Shown here one piece after another: positions 47,719-57,421 of a DNA stretch of 64,000 nucleotides. The DNA comes from Poseidonibacter lekithochrous. Lineage in GTDB: Bacteria > Campylobacterota > Campylobacteria > Campylobacterales > Arcobacteraceae. The notes under the pieces were generated by a model. It was not told the DNA's origin and did not search any database. It saw nothing but the letters and a program-made list of their open reading frames with translations. The DNA is taken from positions 124,001 through 188,000 of the forward strand of contig NZ_JAHKQT010000017.1 of assembly GCF_018861145.1 (NCBI RefSeq), in the 5' to 3' direction. Each line of letters begins with the position of its first letter. Positions within the stretch are counted from its first letter, which is position 1. The position numbers and the translations under genes were made by a program.

Positions 47719-49095
47719 TTAATATTTTATTATAAATTCAGAACCTTTATTAAATTCGGACTTGATTTCAAGTGAAAACTTATGTAACATTAGTATAGAA
47801 TGAACGATAAATAAGCCTAATCCTAAAGAGTTATTCCATCCATTATTTGAAACTCTATAGAATTTATTTTTAATTTTTTCTAGCTCATGTTCTTCAATCC
47901 CAATACCCTTATCAATTATAATAATAGAATTACTTGTAAGTTTAATAATTACTTCGTCTTCGGAATATTTAAGTGCATTCTCAATTAAATTTGAAATAGC
48001 CATAGAAATTAGTGTTTCATCAACTTTTAAATTTATATCTTCACCTTGGATTAATATTTCTCTATCTTTATATTTCTCTTGTAAGTCATGAATAATATCT
48101 TCAAGTAGTTGTTTAATTGAACAAGAGCTTAGAATAAGGTCTTGTTTTCCTTCTTCAAATTTAAGTGTTAATCGTAGTTTATCAATAATCCGTGACATTT
48201 TATTTGCATTTGAATGTATTTTATGTAAAAACTTATTCTTCATTGAACTTGGGATATCTTTATCATGCAAGATAGTCTCTGCATAGCCTGAAATGATTGC
48301 AATTGGATTTTTAAACTCATGAGAAAGTGCTGAAATAATTTCATCTTTTTGTCTATTGGCCATTTTTAGTTTTGCATTTTGTTTTGCTTTTTGTTTTTCT
48401 CTTTTTGATAATTTTAAGGCAACTCTATTTAGAAGTTTTGAGATTTTACTAAATTCAAGAGTATAATCTGATTTTAATTGATAAGAAGGTTTTTTATCAG
48501 ATAATTCTTTTAGAAAAAGTAGAATTGAATCTGTTTCTTTTTTAATTTTTAAACTAATAAAATATGTTGATACAAAAGCAATAATTAAAAAGATAAGAAT
48601 AAAGGCAAATACTTGAAATGTAAGTTTGACAAAGTTATCTGTAATTTTATTTGTATAATCAGCCATTCTAATAAAGTATATTTTTTTGTCTATACTTACT
48701 TTTTTTGCTATATATAGTAGCTCTTTATCTACACTATTTGAGTATCTTATAACTTTCCCCATTCCAAAACTTTTTGCTTGTAATACTTCTTTTCTTTGTG
48801 AATGGTTATTCATTTGATTTTTATCTCTATCACTTTCTGCAACTACATTACCTTTTTCATCAATAATTGTAATTCTAAGCTTTATTTGAGATTTTAAGTC
48901 TTTTACGATTTGATCTATATTATCTAAATCTTTTAACACTATTGAAAGAATATCAATATTTCTAGTTAAACTTTTTTCGCTTTGTTCAAGATAAATATTT
49001 TTTGACCAGTAGTATGTAATAACTGTCAGGGAAAAAAGTATTCCTATGAATACTAATACAAAAGTTCTAAGAAAAAGTTGATGTATTTTTAGCAA
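47719..49095 (-). CDS. Sensor histidine kinase of the phosphate cluster
   Basis: A 458-residue membrane kinase. Transmembrane helices at about 11-30 and 160-182 bracket a periplasmic sensor of about 130 residues. A short HAMP-like stretch follows, then a HisKA domain with H259 in SALSHEFKNPIAIISGYAE and an ATPase domain with N box ISNLIENALKYSED, G1 IIDKGIGI and GLGLFIVHSIL. It overlaps the response regulator gene by 7 bases and ends the pst-pho run, consistent with PhosS/PhoR of Campylobacterota. The large periplasmic sensor differs from E. coli PhoR. Confidence 0.9.
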   Translation of the reverse strand: MLKIHQLFLRTFVLVFIGILFSLTVITYYWSKNIYLEQSEKSLTRNIDILSIVLKDLDNIDQIVKDLKSQIKLRITIIDEKGNVVAESDRDKNQMNNHSQRKEVLQAKSFGMGKVIRYSNSVDKELLYIAKKVSIDKKIYFIRMADYTNKITDNFVKLTFQVFAFILIFLIIAFVSTYFISLKIKKETDSILLFLKELSDKKPSYQLKSDYTLEFSKISKLLNRVALKLSKREKQKAKQNAKLKMANRQKDEIISALSHEFKNPIAIISGYAETILHDKDIPSSMKNKFLHKIHSNANKMSRIIDKLRLTLKFEEGKQDLILSSCSIKQLLEDIIHDLQEKYKDREILIQGEDINLKVDETLISMAISNLIENALKYSEDEVIIKLTSNSIIIIDKGIGIEEHELEKIKNKFYRVSNNGWNNSLGLGLFIVHSILMLHKFSLEIKSEFNKGSEFIIKY

Positions 49096-49763
49096 AATAT
49101 GTAACCTTCTCCTCTTACTGATTTAATATAATTTTTTGTTGAATCTGGATCAATTTTAGCTTTTAGTCTTTTAATTGCAACATTTACAGTCTTAACTTTT
49201 TTATCAAAAGAATCCTCCCATACAGTTTCTAGCAAGTGCTCTCTTGACATTAAAATATCTTTATTTTTTATGAATTCTAAAAATAAATCATGTTCTAAAT
49301 GTGTTAATTCTATTTCTTTTTCTTCTATGTAAAACTTTTTATTACTTGCTTTATATATGATGTCTCTTATTTTTAAAATATTAACTTCTTTCGATGTTCT
49401 TTTAATAACAGCTTTTACCCGTGCAGTTAATTCTTTTAAATTAAAAGGTTTAGTAATATAATCATCTGCATGGGAGTCAAAACCTTCTAATATATCTTCA
49501 TCTTTATCTTTTGCCGTTACATAAATTACAGGATTATTATATCCCTCTTTTTTAATTTGATTAATAAAAGTAGTTCCTTCACTTCCAGGAAGGTTTCTAT
49601 CCATTAAAATAAGACTTATATCTTCTTCCTCTAAAACTTTTTTTAGAGTTTTATCAATATTTAAAAAACCAATTGTTTCAAAGCCTTCTTTTTGTAAATT
49701 ATATTCTAGAAGTTCTAAGATATCTTCTTCATCTTCTACTATTAAAATAAGTTTATTTTTCAT
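49089..49763 (-). CDS. OmpR/PhoB-type response regulator of the phosphate cluster
   Basis: A 224-residue regulator. The receiver domain (about 5-118) has EDEED (9-13), phosphoacceptor D55 in LILMDRNLPGSEG, T at VIYVTAKD and the switch K in YITKPF. The winged-helix domain (about 130-224) ends RLKAKIDPDSTKNYIKSVRGEGYIF. It should bind the direct-repeat boxes seen upstream of pstS and pstC. Functional analogue of PhosR (C. jejuni) or PhoB. It overlaps both neighbours. Confidence 0.92.
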   Translation of the reverse strand: MKNKLILIVEDEEDILELLEYNLQKEGFETIGFLNIDKTLKKVLEEEDISLILMDRNLPGSEGTTFINQIKKEGYNNPVIYVTAKDKDEDILEGFDSHADDYITKPFNLKELTARVKAVIKRTSKEVNILKIRDIIYKASNKKFYIEEKEIELTHLEHDLFLEFIKNKDILMSREHLLETVWEDSFDKKVKTVNVAIKRLKAKIDPDSTKNYIKSVRGEGYIFC

Positions 49764-50205
49764 TTTTCATTAGCTTCTTTTCGTCTTTAACTTTTTTATC
49801 TTCTCTATCATCTTCGTATTCAATAATAGTATCTTTTGATACTTTAATAACACCTGGAGAAAATTTAATAGAAAGAATTCTAAATATAAAAAATATAAAT
49901 ATAACTACTAATAAAAAAGATATATCAAAGTAGTCTTTATGGAGATTTGTCGTTAATATTATTACATCTCTAATTAAAAAGATAATAAAAATATCTATTA
50001 CAAATCTTAGTCTTAGTTTCTGTTTTTTTATAAAATCAGAAATCATTTTTACAACTTCCATAATAACAATAAATTCTAACATGAGAATTATTGCTTTATA
50101 AAAATCTAAGCCTGTAGCAATAATGATTATAAATATAATTGCTGCTGCTAGTACTTCAAAATTTGAAGAAAAATATGTTTTTATTTTGTGTATGGCTTTT
50201 TTCAT
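49753..50205 (-). CDS. PsiE-like membrane protein (phosphate-starvation-inducible family)
   Basis: A 150-residue protein with four hydrophobic helices (about 17-30, 33-50, 66-84 and 92-110), as in PsiE, followed by a hydrophilic C-terminal tail (EDDREDKKVKDEKKLMKNEK) of about 30 residues. The family name and the position between phoU and the response regulator both point to phosphate starvation, but the molecular role of PsiE is not established. The stop overlaps the response regulator start by 11 bases. Confidence 0.75.
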   Translation of the reverse strand: MKKAIHKIKTYFSSNFEVLAAAIIFIIIIATGLDFYKAIILMLEFIVIMEVVKMISDFIKKQKLRLRFVIDIFIIFLIRDVIILTTNLHKDYFDISFLLVVIFIFFIFRILSIKFSPGVIKVSKDTIIEYEDDREDKKVKDEKKLMKNEK

Positions 50206-50225: not shown

Positions 50226-50894
50226 TTATGATCTAATTATATCTCCTCCAACTTGTGCAAATATTGCTAGATTCGCAATTGATGATGCTCTATCTGCTGT
50301 TCTATCTAGTTTTCTAAGACTACTTAAGATATCAAAATACTCTTTTGAAAGTTCAAGGTTTTTAGAAATTAATTTTAAAATGTTTTTTTCAACCATTGCA
50401 TATAAATCATCTGACTTAGTCTCTTCAACTATAATTCTATGATACTTATCTTCCATATCTGAATCATTTATGTCATCAAGCATTGCAATAGATGATCTTA
50501 ATGCTAATAGTGCAGATTTATGTAATGGAATTGCATATTCTAAAATTGTTGCAGTATTTAATTCATCTGAATATGCTTTTCTAAATATTTTAATAAAACC
50601 TTTTACATTTGATACTGCTCTAATCAATTCATTTGTAATTTTTAAATAAGAAACCATTTCTCTTAAATCTTTTGCTTCAGGAGAATACAGTGCAAGTGTC
50701 GTAACTATTAAATTATCAATTTCATTAGATTTATTAGATAGTTTTTTAACTGATAAATCAATCTCTTTTAATGATGAAACATCATCATTCTTTATTTTTT
50801 TTAAAGATACTTCTAAAGCATCAACAACTGTATTTCCAATAGATAAAATCTCTTCTTTAATACTATCTCTTTTTTCTATATATGTTTTTAACAT
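50226..50894 (-). CDS. phoU: PhoU-family phosphate signalling protein
   Basis: A 222-residue all-helical protein with two repeats of a three-helix bundle, for example SSLKEIDLSVKKLSNKSNEIDNLI and the second-copy RTADRASSIANLAIF. PhoU links Pst transport to the sensor kinase and represses the regulon when phosphate is plentiful. Its start codon overlaps the pstB stop by one base. Confidence 0.9.
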   Translation of the reverse strand: MLKTYIEKRDSIKEEILSIGNTVVDALEVSLKKIKNDDVSSLKEIDLSVKKLSNKSNEIDNLIVTTLALYSPEAKDLREMVSYLKITNELIRAVSNVKGFIKIFRKAYSDELNTATILEYAIPLHKSALLALRSSIAMLDDINDSDMEDKYHRIIVEETKSDDLYAMVEKNILKLISKNLELSKEYFDILSSLRKLDRTADRASSIANLAIFAQVGGDIIRS

Positions 50895-51685
50895 TACCCA
50901 AATCTCCCCGTAATATAATCTTCTGTTCTCTTGTTTGAAGGATTAACAAAAATTGTTTCTGTTTCATCGTATTCAACTAATTCACCTAAATGGAAAAATG
51001 CAGTGTAATCTGCTACACGTGCAGCTTGTTGCATATTATGTGTTACTGTAATAATTGTATAGTCTTTTTTTAACTCTAGCATTAGTGCTTCAATCTTTTC
51101 TGTAGATATTGGGTCAAGCGCTGATGTTGGTTCATCCATTAGAATTACTTCTGGTTTGACTGCAATTGTTCTAGCAATACATAATCTTTGTTGTTGCCCC
51201 CCTGACAGTGATGTTCCTGGATCATTTAATTTATCTTTAACTTCATCCCATAAACCAGACTTTTTTAATGATGATTCTACTAACTCATCACATTCTTTTC
51301 CTTTTGTAACAATTCCATGTTTAATAGGAGCATAGGCAACATTGTCATAGATTGATTTTGGAAAAGGGTTTGGTTGTTGAAATACCATTCCAATTCTTTT
51401 TCTTACACTAACTTCATCAATATCTTTATCATAAATATTTCTTTTATCAATTACAACTGAACCTTCAATATTTACAATTGGAATTAAATCATTCATTCTA
51501 TTTAAACATCTTAAAAATGTTGATTTACCACATCCCGAAGGTCCAATTAATGCAGTGATTTTATTCTCATAAATATCTACACTTATCTCATGTAAGGCAT
51601 GGTTATCACCATACCAAAGGTTTAGTTTTTCTACTTTTACTTTTGTTTTATTATCTTTTGACATATTAATTTTCCCTTCTACCAT
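50894..51685 (-). CDS. pstB: Phosphate ABC transporter ATPase
   Basis: A 263-residue ATPase with Walker [13 protein letters not shown], the PstB-specific FQQPNPFP Q-loop, signature [13 protein letters not shown], Walker [14 protein letters not shown] and H-loop THNMQQA. The ATG at 51685 overlaps the pstA stop by 7 bases; an internal ATG after 7 codons (MSKDNK) is also possible. Confidence 0.96.
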
Positions 51686-52857
51686 TTAACTTCGAATTTT
51701 TTACGTAAATATATTGCAATTGCATTAAGTGAAATTAAGACACTTAATAAAACCATAATTCCAGCAGCTGTTTTTTCTATATACATTCTTTCTGGCATTC
51801 CTGCCCATGTAAATAATTGTGCTGGCATAACTGTTGATGCTTCTAGAATACTTCCTGGTGCATCTGGAATAAATGCAATCATACCAATGATAATTAAAGG
51901 AGCTGTTTCACCCATTGCTTGTGCTAGTCCAATAATTGAACCAGTTAAAACACCTGGGAAAGCTAAGGGTAAAACATGATCTTTTGTTACTTGAATTTTT
52001 GTTAATCCTAAACCATATCCTGCTTGTCTAATACTATCTGGAACTGCTCTTAATGCTGCTCGTGAACTTACAATTATAATAGGTAAGGTCATAAGTGCAA
52101 GAGTTAAACCACCAACTAGTGGTGAAGATCTTGGAACACCAAATAAATTGATATAAACGGCAAGTCCTAAAAGTCCAAATAAAATTGATGGAATTGCTGC
52201 CAGGTTATTGATATTAACTTCAATAAATCTTGTAAATTGATTATCTTCTGCAAACTCTTCTAAGTATATTGCTGTTAACACACCTAATGGAAAAGCAACA
52301 ATCATTGTAATTAATAGCGTTAAAATTGAACCAACCATTGCTGAAAATAATCCTGCATTTTCAGGAATTTTTGAATCACCATTTGTAAAGAATATTGTGT
52401 TGAATTTTTTTTCAATTTTATCAGCTTCATTCATCTCATCAACAAGAGCTTTATCTTTTCTTTTTAACTTATAGTGGTGACCTTTTAAATATTGATCAAC
52501 TTGATCATCTGCTAAAACCCAAAGAGTCTGTTCTGTATTCATTAAACTTGGGTTTTCTTCTACGTGTCTTGGTAAATCTCTAAGCCAAGATCTTGAAACA
52601 ATTTTTCTATACTTTTTCTCAACAGCAAATCTTGAATCAGCTACTGTCTTTTCGTTGTATGTAACATTTACTTCTAAATAAGCAACATTGAATGCAGGTA
52701 TTCCTTTTCCAATAATATCAAATAAGAAGAAAGCTAAAAATGCAATTGAAAACACCAAAGATGTTAAAGTAAATGTCTTAAATCTTTTTGCACTTGCATG
52801 TCTTTTATTTAATGCTGGATCATAAAAGGGATTATCTAAATTTTTATTTTTAATCAT
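51679..52857 (-). CDS. pstA: Phosphate ABC transporter permease PstA, with DUF3333-type insert
   Basis: A 392-residue permease, longer than the usual 280-300. The extra length is a periplasmic segment of about 110 residues (about 60-165) between helix 1 and helix 2, rich in charged residues, which matches the DUF3333 insert known in some PstA proteins. The BPD-permease part has LIEFAEDN-like and [24 protein letters not shown], the EAA loop contacting PstB. It overlaps pstC by 4 bases and pstB by 7. Confidence 0.93.
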
Positions 52858-53783
52858 AATGTATTCACTTTATATTTTTCTTTGAATTTTCTAATTAGAG
52901 CTAATGAAATAATATTTAAAACAAGAGTAACAATAAAAAGTATAAGACCAAGAGCAAATGCTGAAAGTGTTTCAGGTGAATTAAATTCAAAATCTCCTAC
53001 AAGTGAACTTACGATTGTTACTGTAACTGTTGTCATATCTTCTAACGGGTTCCATGAAAGATTAGGTCTTAGCCCTGCTGCCATTACAACAATCATTGTT
53101 TCGCCTAAGGCCTTTGATAAACCAAGAAGTGAAGCTGAAATAATTCCTGGAAGTGCTGAAGGAATAACAATATCTCTAATTGTTTCACCTTGCGTAAGTC
53201 CAAGTCCTAATGCTGCTTTCCGTTGACTATCTGGAACTGATCTAATTACATCATCTGAAAGTGATGAAATTACTGGAATAATCATAATCCCCATCACAAC
53301 GCCAGATGCAAGGGCTGAGTTAAATGTGGCTTCTAAGCCAATAGCATCAGCTGCTTGTACAATTAGTGGTGCTACTGTAATTGCTGCAAAGAATCCATAT
53401 ACAACTGTAGGGATTCCTGCTAATACTTCAAGAAGAGGTTTTAAATAATCTCTTGTAGTTGAGCTTGCGTATTCACTCATATAAATTGCACTTCCTAAAC
53501 CTACTGGAATTGCAATTGCTAGTGCAATTATTGTAATTACAAATGTTCCTGAAAAAATAGGAACTGCACCAAATTTACTTCCTTCAACACCTGGAGACCA
53601 TTCTGTACCAGTTATAAAGTACCAGAAACTTCTCATTTTGAAGAATTCAATTGACTCAAAAAGAATTGAGAAAAGAATACCAAATGTTGTTAGTATTGAA
53701 ATACCAGAAGCGATGATTAACGCTAGTTTAATCATTTTTTCTGTTAATTCCCTTTGTTTATTTCTTGTTTCAAATGTGCTCAA
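52854..53783 (-). CDS. pstC: Phosphate ABC transporter permease PstC
   Basis: A 309-residue permease with six hydrophobic helices. The hallmark GVEGSKFGAVPIFSGTFVITIIALAIAIPVGLGSAIYMSEYAS and the EAA loop DSQRKAALGLGLTQGETIRDI are present. A second Pho-box candidate and a TATAAT box lie upstream (53814-53845), so pstCAB can be transcribed independently of pstS and the c-di-GMP gene. Confidence 0.95.
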   Translation of the reverse strand: MSTFETRNKQRELTEKMIKLALIIASGISILTTFGILFSILFESIEFFKMRSFWYFITGTEWSPGVEGSKFGAVPIFSGTFVITIIALAIAIPVGLGSAIYMSEYASSTTRDYLKPLLEVLAGIPTVVYGFFAAITVAPLIVQAADAIGLEATFNSALASGVVMGIMIIPVISSLSDDVIRSVPDSQRKAALGLGLTQGETIRDIVIPSALPGIISASLLGLSKALGETMIVVMAAGLRPNLSWNPLEDMTTVTVTIVSSLVGDFEFNSPETLSAFALGLILFIVTLVLNIISLALIRKFKEKYKVNTL

Positions 53784-53813: not shown

Positions 53814-53819
53814 ATTATA
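53814..53819 (-). promoter_or_regulatory. -10 box (TATAAT, minus strand) for pstC
   Basis: ATTATA on the plus strand. It is separated by 8 bases from the end of the pstC Pho-box candidate, the same distance as at pstS. Confidence 0.55.
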
Positions 53820-53827
53820 ATGAAGAA

Positions 53828-53845
53828 TAGTTACATAATGATTAC
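53828..53845 (-). promoter_or_regulatory. Pho-box candidate upstream of pstC
   Basis: On the minus strand GTAATCA-TTAT-GTAACTA: two 7-base direct repeats with a 4-base spacer (11-base period), the geometry of a PhoB-type box. It matches the element upstream of pstS. Confidence 0.6.
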
Positions 53846-53848
53846 AAT

Positions 53849-55588
53849 TTAGATTGCTGCAGATAAGGGACTTGTTTGCCTTTTTGAGTTCTTTTTTAAG
53901 ATATTTAATGTGTAGTCAAAGTTTTCTTGTTTTGAATTATTTGATATTTCAAGTAAAGCACAAGATACAGATAGGAGTTTAAATTTTCTTTGAATATTAA
54001 ATCTATCTTTTGTAAATATATATTTATTGTCTTTATCTTTTTGATCATAGAGATTTTTTACTGATTCTTCAAATTCTAACATTACTTTTGAAGTTAGTGT
54101 ATAAACTTCTTCATATTTTGTATTTTTTATACCAACAAAGAAATCATCTCCTCCAACATGAGCAATAAAGTGAGTATTAGAATACTTTTTTTGTAGTAAA
54201 TCCGAAAAAATTAATATTGCTCTATCTCCTAGTCTAAAACCATAATGATCATTAAATGGTTTAAAATCATTAAAATCAAAATACAGCATATGTGTAGTCT
54301 CATCTGTTCTATTTATATTATTTAATGTTGTGGAAATAAATTGTTCGATTTGTTTATTCCCTGGAAGTGAGGTAAGAGGATTTTGATTCATTGCAATATC
54401 TAGATTTCTATTGTATGAAATTGTGAGTAAGGAATTAAGATTGATAAAACCTTTGTATTCTCCTTGCGTTGTAATAAAAATACCTGTTGACTCTTCTTGA
54501 TTATGATTAAAAGTCTCTAAAGTTTTATCAATACCCCATGTAGATTCAATAGATAAGATAGGCTTTATATATTTTTTTAAAGTTGAAGCATAGGCTTTAT
54601 TTCTTGATAAAGATAATCCATATTGTGAATATGATATCTTTTTTATATCCATTTCATAAATAATCCCTAATAAAATATTATTATCATTAACAACGGGAAC
54701 AAAATTATATTTTTGGGAATCTTTAAAGTATAAAAAAAGTGATGAAAGACTTTCATTGTGATTTATAGGAATAATATTTTCTATATATTTTTTATTTATT
54801 TTCACCACTGCATCCTTTCTTTTGTCTTTTTCTAGGACACCAATAATATTGTCATAAATAGGTTTTATATTTGTAATATCAATAGTTGGTTTTTGAACTA
54901 AATAGCCTTGTATATAATCAGCTCCAATATCTTTGCATGTATAAAATTCATTTATTTCTTCTACACCTTCTGCTACAACTTTAATACCCATTGTATGTGC
55001 CATTTCAATAATTGAAATACAAAATAGTTTCTTTTTTGAATCCTTATGGATGTTTGATATGAAAAATCTATCAAGTTTGATAATATTTGCTTCTGCAAAG
55101 TACAAAAGTTTTAACCCAGATACTCCTACTCCAAAATCATCAATTGCAATTGTATAGTCCTTACTCTTGTATTCACAAATAAGTTTTGATAAGGAATCTT
55201 TTTCAATTGTCTTTCCTCTCTCACTTAATTCAAAACAGAAAACGTCTTTAGTTAAATTATATTTTTCTAAAATTAAGTCATTATTATCACTTATTGATTT
55301 ACATTCATAAATTATTCTATTATCTAAATTATAAAATAGTTTTAAATTCTCAATTTTAATTTGTGAAAATTTATTTATGGCTTTTTCTCTTAATAATTGA
55401 TCTAATTCAAATAACATATTTTCTTCATATGCTAAGTCAAATAAATCATGAATATTTTTAAAGTAATCAAACTTATCAGTATTTCGAATTAGAGCTTCAA
55501 CAGCATAAATTTTTCCTGTATGTGAATAAACAATTGGTTGAAAAGCATAATCTAGAGTATTAAATATCGTTAACCATTTTTTTGTCAT
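53849..55588 (-). CDS. EAL-CBS-GGDEF c-di-GMP protein inside the pst cluster
   Basis: A 579-residue cytoplasmic protein with the EAL domain first (about 5-250; E31-A32-L33 and IDDFGVGVSGLKLLYF), then a CBS pair (about 270-385), then a GGDEF domain (about 400-560) whose motif reads GGDDF at 479-483 with the metal-binding FDFNDFKPFNDHYG intact. Both active sites look nearly complete, so diesterase or cyclase activity is possible; CBS domains suggest control by adenosyl ligands. The gene lies between pstS and pstC on the same strand, linking phosphate supply with c-di-GMP. Confidence 0.88.
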   Translation of the reverse strand: MTKKWLTIFNTLDYAFQPIVYSHTGKIYAVEALIRNTDKFDYFKNIHDLFDLAYEENMLFELDQLLREKAINKFSQIKIENLKLFYNLDNRIIYECKSISDNNDLILEKYNLTKDVFCFELSERGKTIEKDSLSKLICEYKSKDYTIAIDDFGVGVSGLKLLYFAEANIIKLDRFFISNIHKDSKKKLFCISIIEMAHTMGIKVVAEGVEEINEFYTCKDIGADYIQGYLVQKPTIDITNIKPIYDNIIGVLEKDKRKDAVVKINKKYIENIIPINHNESLSSLFLYFKDSQKYNFVPVVNDNNILLGIIYEMDIKKISYSQYGLSLSRNKAYASTLKKYIKPILSIESTWGIDKTLETFNHNQEESTGIFITTQGEYKGFINLNSLLTISYNRNLDIAMNQNPLTSLPGNKQIEQFISTTLNNINRTDETTHMLYFDFNDFKPFNDHYGFRLGDRAILIFSDLLQKKYSNTHFIAHVGGDDFFVGIKNTKYEEVYTLTSKVMLEFEESVKNLYDQKDKDNKYIFTKDRFNIQRKFKLLSVSCALLEISNNSKQENFDYTLNILKKNSKRQTSPLSAAI

Positions 55589-55652
55589 TTAGGTAAGATC
55601 TTTTGAATTAATTTTATTAATAATTACAACTAATAATTAAAAAAATTAAAAG

Positions 55653-55680
55653 AAATAAGGAGAGTATTCTCTCCTTATTT
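55653..55680 (-). terminator. Intercistronic hairpin after pstS
   Basis: AAATAAGGAGAG pairs with CTCTCCTTATTT across a 4-base loop. On the minus strand it begins right at the pstS stop and is followed by a T-rich stretch. Probably a partial terminator or mRNA stabiliser that keeps pstS expression above that of downstream genes. Confidence 0.7.
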
Positions 55681-56739
55681 TTATTTGTGTTTTAAATCAG
55701 CTAATGTTAATTTATTTTTATTTTTTACGCTTGTTGCAATTTTATGTGCCATATCAGCTGGTAAAGGAATTAAACCGATTTCAGTTAAGATACCTTCTTG
55801 ACCAATCATTTTATCTGACATGAATAAGTCTACATATTTATTCATAGCTGGAACTTCTTTTGCATGAGAATTTTTGATATAGAAAAATAATGATCTAGAT
55901 ACTGGGTATTTAGATGATGAAATATTATCAGGAGTTGGATGTACACCATTAATAGTTGCACCTTGAACTTTATCGTCATTTTCTTCTAAGAAAGAGAATC
56001 CAAATACACCAAATGCATTTTTATTTTTTTCTAATTTTTGAACGATTAAGTTATCATTTTCACCAGCTTCAACATAAACACCATCAGTTCTTAAAATTGA
56101 ATATTTTTTATATTTTTTGTTTGCTTTTTTATCTGCTTTATAAAGATCTGTATATACAGCCATTTTTTTGAAAGTATTTTGTAATACTAATTCTTCAAAT
56201 GCATCTCTTGTACCAGATGATTTTGGTGGTCCATAAACAATAATCTCTCTATTTGGTAATGAAGCATCAATATCAGACCATTTTTTGTATGGGTTAGCGA
56301 TTAATGATTTACCATCTTTTGAAGGTACTTCTTTTGCAACTGCTAATGCTAAGTTAGTTTTAGAAATATCGAATGCTTTATTTGAAATAGACTGTGCAAA
56401 TGCAATTCCATCGTAACCAATTACTGCTTCTGTAATATCAGTAACTCCATTTTTTTCACACATTTGAAATTCAGTTGATTTCATTCTTCTTGATGCATTT
56501 GTAATATCTGGTGTATTTAAATCATTACCAGCACAAAATAATTTCATACCACCACCTGAACCAGTTGATTCAACTACAGGAGTAGGGAACTTTGTAGTTG
56601 CACCAAATTCTTCAGCTACTGAAGATGAAAAAGGATATACTGTTGATGATCCTACGATTTTAATTTGATCTCTTGCACTTAAACTTACTGTTAATGCTGC
56701 ACTTGCTAATAACGCTAATGATGTTTTTCTGATTGACAT
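55681..56739 (-). CDS. pstS: Phosphate-binding protein PstS
   Basis: A 352-residue periplasmic binding protein. The signal peptide is about 1-22 (SLALLASAALTVSLSA). The phosphate site shows GSSTVYPFSSSVAEEF (about 31-46), VESTGSGGGMKLFCAG and SGTRDAFEELV, the usual Ser/Thr/Asp/Arg ligands. It starts the phosphate cluster; an AACGGAGAAA ribosome site precedes the ATG. A Pho-box candidate lies 45-62 bases upstream. Confidence 0.95.
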   Translation of the reverse strand: MSIRKTSLALLASAALTVSLSARDQIKIVGSSTVYPFSSSVAEEFGATTKFPTPVVESTGSGGGMKLFCAGNDLNTPDITNASRRMKSTEFQMCEKNGVTDITEAVIGYDGIAFAQSISNKAFDISKTNLALAVAKEVPSKDGKSLIANPYKKWSDIDASLPNREIIVYGPPKSSGTRDAFEELVLQNTFKKMAVYTDLYKADKKANKKYKKYSILRTDGVYVEAGENDNLIVQKLEKNKNAFGVFGFSFLEENDDKVQGATINGVHPTPDNISSSKYPVSRSLFFYIKNSHAKEVPAMNKYVDLFMSDKMIGQEGILTEIGLIPLPADMAHKIATSVKNKNKLTLADLKHK

Positions 56740-56769
56740 ATTTTTCTCCGTATTAATTTTTATGAGTGA

Positions 56770-56775
56770 AGTTTA
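56770..56775 (-). promoter_or_regulatory. -10 box candidate (TAAACT, minus strand) for pstS
   Basis: AGTTTA on the plus strand, 8 bases beyond the pstS Pho-box candidate. TATTAA, three bases further upstream, is an alternative. Confidence 0.4.
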
Positions 56776-56783
56776 ATATGAGT

Positions 56784-56801
56784 TGATTACAATTTGGTTA
56801 C
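56784..56801 (-). promoter_or_regulatory. Pho-box candidate upstream of pstS
   Basis: On the minus strand GTAACCA-AATT-GTAATCA: two 7-base direct repeats with a 4-base spacer, 45 bases before the pstS ATG. The same arrangement occurs before pstC. Confidence 0.65.
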
Positions 56802-56866: not shown

Positions 56867-57421
56867 ATGAAAAAATTAGGGTTAAGTATACTTACAAGTA
56901 TTTGTTTATTTACAAGTTTAAATGCTTATGACAATTATGCAAGATATTCGATTTTATATTCTGTTCCAAGTGATTTGGAAGTAAAATCGGGGAGTGATAA
57001 AAGTGAAATAGGATTGAGTACTGCGTATTCTTTTGAAGTAGGATTAGGATTTGGACTTTCAGATAATTTTACATTAGAAACACAATATACATATAATACT
57101 GCAAAAATGGAAGAAGGAAAAGGAGATATGGATATTCATTCTTTATTTATAAATGGTATCTATAATATAAAACTTGATACAAGTTTAATTCATCCATATT
57201 TAGGTATTGGAGTTGGTCCTGCTTCTTATTCACTTAAAAGTGATAACGATGTTGTTTTAGGATATCAAGGATTTTTTGGGACAGCTTTTGATTTTGAACC
57301 TAATATACAGACATATATTGAATATAAATATAAAAAGTTTAATGATGTTCAATTAGATAATATTTCTTATGAAAATACAAATATTCATGCTATTGGAGTA
57401 GGTGTTAAAACTAAGTTTTAG
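56867..57421 (+). CDS. Outer-membrane beta-barrel protein
   Basis: A 184-residue exported protein with a signal peptide (about 1-20, ends LNAYD) and alternating amphipathic strands such as AYSFEVGLGFGLSDNFTLETQYTYN and HPYLGIGVGPASYSL, ending in Phe (GVGVKTKF), the beta-barrel assembly signal. This is the OmpW/OmpA-like small-barrel style; the exact family is not certain. It is divergent from pstS, so its promoter shares the region with the Pho-box candidate. Confidence 0.82.
   Translation: MKKLGLSILTSICLFTSLNAYDNYARYSILYSVPSDLEVKSGSDKSEIGLSTAYSFEVGLGFGLSDNFTLETQYTYNTAKMEEGKGDMDIHSLFINGIYNIKLDTSLIHPYLGIGVGPASYSLKSDNDVVLGYQGFFGTAFDFEPNIQTYIEYKYKKFNDVQLDNISYENTNIHAIGVGVKTKF

Follow-up and report, generated by a model that had tools for sequence, protein, structure and literature searches.

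Why should a gene for the turnover of cyclic di-GMP (c-di-GMP) be located inside a phosphate uptake cluster? The question is raised by a stretch of Poseidonibacter lekithochrous DNA of 64,000 nucleotides, here called the window (C33:124001-188000 of genome G000, which comprises 2,996,367 bases in 44 contigs). On its minus strand the gene order is prfA, pstS, a gene encoding EAL, CBS and GGDEF domains, pstC, pstA, pstB, phoU, a PsiE-family gene, a PhoB-type response regulator gene and a histidine kinase gene (based on open reading frames, with Pfam matches for most). A sequence-only reading had placed the EAL-CBS-GGDEF gene between pstS and pstC, and Pfam bears this out: all three domains are found on the product of 53849-55588 (minus strand), and its neighbors are of the PstS and PstC types. 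The explanation that we regard as very probable is that this is a Pho-controlled gene of the RapA type: following phosphate starvation the enzyme would be induced, c-di-GMP would fall and cells would detach. Comparison among several hundred genomes, with a sample of 100 from the family Arcobacteraceae, argues for this through a Pho box and its predicted regulon, box control across lineages, membership in the RapA family, intact catalytic residues and the presence of LapD, LapG and adhesin genes.

Both pstS (55681-56739, minus strand, as for all cluster features given below; phosphate-binding protein, Pfam PBP_like_2, 9.5e-46) and pstC (52854-53783; permease with a likely TTG start, Pfam BPD_transp_1, 1.3e-14) are preceded by a repeat box identified by pattern search. 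The pstS box is GTAACCA-aatt-GTAATCA (56784-56801) and the pstC box is GTAATCA-ttat-GTAACTA (53828-53845), the latter located 3 nt past the stop codon of the EAL gene. Each is followed after exactly 8 nt by a candidate -10 element, TAAACT for pstS (56770-56775) and TATAAT for pstC (53814-53819). The sequences thus read exactly as had been described from the letters alone, namely same-strand GTAAYCA/GTAAYYA pairs with a 4-base spacer and 8 bases to the -10 element. Here and at the other genome sites, the two 7-nt direct repeats have an 11-nt period and occupy the -35 position.

Genome-wide scoring of the box was carried out with pattern searches. The pattern GTAAYCAN4GTAAYYA matches six times in the whole genome, two of these being the pstS and pstC boxes, while the reversed-pattern control has no match in the same sequence. 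When the -10 element is included, five places match without mismatch, and at four of these a gene starts 26-32 nt past the -10; 20 sites match with at most two mismatches, versus five control sites. The genes past the better sites, as assigned by Pfam, encode a phytase-like protein (Phytase-like; C12:312595), PhoX (C40:48332), an inositol monophosphatase (Inositol_P; C7:2128), a PhoH-PIN protein (PhoH; C9:105342), a GntR/UTRA regulator that we read as PhnF-like (C12:327783), an acyltransferase-GNAT protein that we read as being of the ornithine-lipid type (C2:127465), PPK2 (C3:25746), PhoD (C11:32779) and a metallophosphoesterase (C17:9716). These make up the predicted Pho regulon. As this is a textbook list of phosphate starvation genes, and it was found without using function, it identifies the GTAAYCA-N4-GTAAYYA repeat as a Pho box. 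None of the listed box sites precedes any other GGDEF or EAL gene, though such segments number in the dozens in this genome.

A perfect box with a -10 element (TATACT) at C6:152321-152352 (L178:2322-2353) lacks a following gene. Within a few dozen nucleotides comes a hairpin, AAAAAAGATT-ACGCGAAC-AATCTTTTTT, beyond which the next gene runs on the opposite strand. This site is a candidate for a phosphate-controlled small RNA.

The arrangement in the window is well conserved. A full-length EAL-CBS-GGDEF orthologue is encoded by about 68 of the 100 family genomes, and the order pstS-EAL gene-pstC is found in 54 loci having all three genes on one stretch (hereafter canonical loci); it is the standard order in the family. 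At least 12 of the 14 box positions are matched in 74 of 78 family regions upstream of pstS, and the pstC box is present in 54/54 canonical loci (scores 18.2-37.2), such that the repeats are conserved, which speaks against the possibility raised beforehand that they might not be. In all, 135 pstS and pstC sites have in common the box, the 8-nt gap and a TAWAMT -10 element. In 21 of the canonical loci, the TAA stop codon of the EAL gene lies inside the first repeat (G-TAA-CCA) of the pstC box, and in 25 more the box begins 1-7 nt past the stop. The pstC box is kept in most genomes without the EAL gene (among them G087, G090, G094, G095, G012 and G073), which argues that the pstC promoter is independent of the inserted gene; it is lost in two others that lack the EAL gene (G092 and G027), where pstC begins approximately 20 nt after pstS. 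The earlier suggestion that pstCAB has its own PhoB-type promoter therefore appears sound. Likewise, every canonical locus has a hairpin (7 bp or longer) separating pstS from the EAL gene. In the window it has a 12 bp stem followed by a T-rich stretch (55653-55680) and is likely a partial terminator. A ACGCGAAC loop recurs in some hairpins and is absent from the window.

In its canonical place, the window included, the EAL gene lacks an own box (best score over the canonical loci, -7.5). Where pstS has been lost or the gene is located elsewhere, an own box is found in 10 genomes from about four lineages, with three exceptions. For reference, none of 5,000 simulated upstream regions scored above 11.05, which was their maximum, and the 99.9% quantile was 5.4. 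In G030 and G031, pstSCAB is lost but the gene, phoU, PsiE-family, regulator and kinase genes are kept, and a box scoring 31.7 and 31.1, respectively, precedes the gene. G078 has also lost pstSCAB, and a box scoring 26.8 is located about 370 nt upstream. In G081 and G082 the gene precedes pstS (29.1 and 28.9), and in G002 and G006 it is found at a distant locus (20.9). The remaining scores are 19.5 (G071), 12.8 (G044) and 11.1 (G048). In the gene tree, G030/G031, G078 and the group of G081, G082, G002 and G006 fall inside the canonical clade, which indicates later, separate rearrangements. The G002 and G006 copies (L065 and L063) group with g17/g4 enzymes and apart from their own genus, which speaks against a simple move of the gene; they probably reflect loss from the pst cluster followed by re-acquisition, again with a Pho box. 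The g8/g13 and g19 copies branch deep, beside other families, and for these a location elsewhere may thus be the older state. It had been proposed that the idea would fail if the gene occurred without phosphate control; in this comparison the gene is rarely without a site, as it either follows the pstS promoter or usually has its own predicted box.

A separate observation is that four loci (L055, L058, L076 and L077, in G030, G031, G078 and G076) have lost pstCAB, and three of them pstS as well, with the RapA-like gene, phoU, PsiE-family, regulator and kinase genes still in place. They are phosphate-signaling modules without a Pst permease.

What would the product do? Its Pfam domains are EAL (residues 11-234, 4.6e-44), CBS (270-318, 4.7e-7) and GGDEF (404-502, 1e-15), and a structure model (mean pLDDT 83, pTM 0.50) has domains that were already clear from sequence. 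The EAL signature residues E31, R35, N87, D150, K171, E210 and Q227 are present in 67/67 orthologues, E123 and D151 in 66 and E207 in 65; a GGDDF motif is invariant in all 67. When a Pseudomonas orthologue was used as a query, the window gene was the best match in the genome (E-value: 8e-54 over 1-523), the next match (8e-25) covering EAL only. End-to-end alignment with the Pseudomonadaceae orthologue gave 24% over 561 columns (E-value: 8e-65). As this comparison used the Pseudomonadaceae orthologue, the step from it to RapA follows PMC12900916 and PMC9394441, according to which P. aeruginosa PA3258 is an EAL-CBS-GGDEF protein with apparent phosphodiesterase activity whose homologue RapA depletes c-di-GMP in phosphate-starved cells. 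For RapA of P. fluorescens Pf0-1, PhoB switches on rapA via a Pho box, and RapA then lowers c-di-GMP such that LapG cuts LapA and the biofilm detaches (PMC3032545). Based on these comparisons, RapA-like is the right name for the window gene, which likely encodes a c-di-GMP phosphodiesterase.

The following chain of events would connect these components. Under phosphate scarcity the PhoR/PhoB-like pair, whose genes close the cluster, would be activated by phosphorylation. The regulator would bind the 11-bp tandem repeats GTAAYCA-N4-GTAAYYA, which stand in for a -35 element, turning on pstS and, through the second copy of the box, pstCAB-phoU and the regulator genes. Transcription of the EAL gene would depend on polymerase that starts at the pstS promoter and reads through the conserved hairpin, and this should yield far less EAL transcript than pstS transcript. 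The EAL domain would then cleave c-di-GMP, with the GGDDF domain and CBS part probably tuning activity in response to GTP or adenine nucleotides. CBS domains often sense adenine nucleotides, and this suggests such a role for the CBS part here. Finally, the drop in c-di-GMP would free LapG from LapD, large surface adhesins would be cut and the cells would detach.

Candidate genes for this last step are present. The genome encodes four LapG-type and three LapD-type proteins, including three adjacent LapG-LapD pairs (C1:47466-48708, C2:10619-11532 and C15:3048-3928) and a lone LapG (C23:105217-105549). Two of the three pairs adjoin large adhesin genes. On C2, an RTX-repeat adhesin gene is followed by genes for an outer-membrane efflux protein, LapG, LapD, an ABC transporter and HlyD, and the pair on C15 adjoins a 1,944-codon open frame that encodes Ig- and cadherin-like domains. 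With LapG, LapD and large adhesin genes found, each component of the Pseudomonas circuit has a homologue here. Adhesin release in this organism seems unusually elaborate in having three such pairs and a lone LapG.

Several points weigh against a starvation-induced phosphodiesterase. First, six of nine other g1 genomes are without a full-length orthologue, and pst is intact in five of these six, so the function is dispensable. Second, three g19 genomes (G096, G098 and G099) have a relocated orthologue with no recognizable box. Third, read-through past the hairpin is a prediction; the 92 nt that separate the EAL gene from pstS may instead hold an unrecognized promoter. Fourth, the substrate-site residues of the GGDEF domain are retained (D438, K443, N446, D447 and D455, in nearly all orthologues, with the GGDDF motif) and PA3258, once deprived of its phosphodiesterase activity, shows cyclase activity (PMC12900916); the enzyme may therefore work in both directions. 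Fifth, phosphate limitation raises attachment in Agrobacterium, perhaps via a PhoB-dependent rise in c-di-GMP (PMC4018554), so the direction of the effect may differ between lineages. The fourth and fifth points, together with a 10/12 box match in L230, a relative of Agrobacterium, are also the grounds for supposing that the gene is phosphate-controlled but encodes mainly a diguanylate cyclase, or an enzyme switched by its CBS part between the two activities, such that c-di-GMP and attachment would increase under phosphate limitation. We consider this unlikely because the EAL signature residues are all kept, the canonical glutamate of GGDEF is an aspartate and RapA, the characterized relative, lowers c-di-GMP (PMC3032545).

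The starvation-induced phosphodiesterase reading also draws on genomes outside the family. Among other Campylobacterota, including records named Sulfurimonas and Sulfuricurvum, half of the 34 orthologue loci (17) reach a score of 0 or higher within 150 nt, compared to 0.04 expected and one on the reverse strand, and several orthologue loci are linked to pst genes. In Pseudomonadaceae, the classical Pho box is found about 60 nt before the start in 28/30 orthologues (0.4 expected), a count in which the Pseudomonas locus L304, read in the wrong orientation, is a miss; it was found in 0/196 control regions upstream of other EAL genes. In a set of 80 loci, mostly from distant relatives, 20 have at least a 10/12 match to the classical TGTCAY repeat (1.9 expected, six on the reverse strand), but these are mostly rhizobia and not mutually independent.

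These distant loci also bear on a proposal in which the main target of the protein is phosphate signaling itself, through feedback on, say, PhoU, the kinase or Pst, and not the global c-di-GMP pool. The gene does stay beside phoU, the PsiE-family gene, the regulator and the kinase in the pstCAB-less genomes G030, G031, G076 and G078, but distant lineages show the box even though the gene is unlinked to those four, and both the conservation of the catalytic residues and the precedent of RapA favor a c-di-GMP output, making feedback as the main role very improbable. That the gene is a mere bystander, inserted by chance between pstS and pstC with a constitutive promoter of its own behind the hairpin and no role in the phosphate response, would fit the hairpin with its T-rich tail, the lack of an own box in the canonical place and the absence of the gene from some close relatives, but is highly unlikely given the own Pho boxes in rearranged genomes, other Campylobacterota and Pseudomonadaceae and the retention of the gene beside phoU and the regulator genes after pstSCAB loss. 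The earlier proposal of a phosphate regulon that includes a c-di-GMP enzyme is thus the one favored by the position of the gene behind the pstS promoter, by its own boxes in rearranged and distant lineages and by its RapA family relationship.

A broader possibility is that the EAL-CBS-GGDEF phosphodiesterase has belonged to the core of the Pho regulon since ancient times in Campylobacterota and Proteobacteria, its phosphate control being kept or regained each time despite the change of the box from CTGTCAT to GTAAYCA. This is plausible, with the chances for and against evenly balanced in our estimation. If it is true, letting go of surfaces would be a general phosphate starvation response, beyond Pseudomonas.

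The remainder of the cluster comprises pstA (51679-52857; permease, Pfam DUF3333 and BPD_transp_1), pstB (50894-51685; ATPase, identified as an open reading frame, with PstB 74-95% identical across pst clusters of the family), phoU (50226-50894; identified by open reading frame and conserved position), the PsiE-family gene (49753-50205; Pfam PsiE, 1.2e-5), the OmpR/PhoB-type response regulator gene (49089-49763; Pfam Response_reg and Trans_reg_C), whose product is the presumed box binder, and the PhoR-type histidine kinase gene (47719-49095; Pfam HisKA, HATPase_c and sCache_like). Divergent from pstS is a gene for an outer-membrane beta-barrel/opacity-type protein (56867-57421), and the shared 127-nt gap holds the pstS Pho box.

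Genomes of this group encode dozens of c-di-GMP enzymes with mostly unknown triggers; A. butzleri RM4018, for example, has 25 GGDEF/EAL proteins (PMC2147049). Here one trigger can be read from the DNA, and its likely output, LapD-LapG adhesin release, is encoded in the same genome. Among open-licence papers we found no Arcobacter or Campylobacterota report of such an arrangement, which is weak evidence of absence. The RapA family itself is known already; what appears to be new is an unusual and informative location with strong comparative support.

How does this system compare to those already characterized? Like the classical Pho box, the box described here has two 7-nt direct repeats and a 4-nt spacer (PMC4415409), and it lies 8 nt before the -10 element; the repeat is GTAAYCA rather than CTGTCAT. 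The combined box and -10 element provide a sharp model for the group, from which the Pho regulon is predicted. The window gene resembles RapA and PA3258 in its EAL-CBS-GGDEF order, GGDDF motif, full-length similarity to the Pseudomonadaceae orthologue and, by comparison only, Pho box control. It differs from RapA in three respects. First, RapA has its own Pho box, whereas the window gene is embedded in the pst cluster, downstream of pstS and a hairpin. Second, the pstC box abuts the stop codon of the window gene and overlaps it in many relatives. Third, the box itself has the divergent repeat. As in the LapD-LapG-LapA system, LapG and LapD genes are adjacent, one pair being accompanied by efflux protein, ABC transporter and HlyD genes; a tie to the phosphate-controlled enzyme is a prediction. 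In Vibrio cholerae, according to the review PMC4741415, which cites Pratt et al. 2009, less biofilm forms under phosphate limitation and through PhoB, and the c-di-GMP pool is modified; the circuit predicted here would likewise tie phosphate limitation to c-di-GMP, a likeness of effect and not of compared enzymes. A circuit known from one Pseudomonas may in this way become a testable rule for Campylobacterota and beyond.

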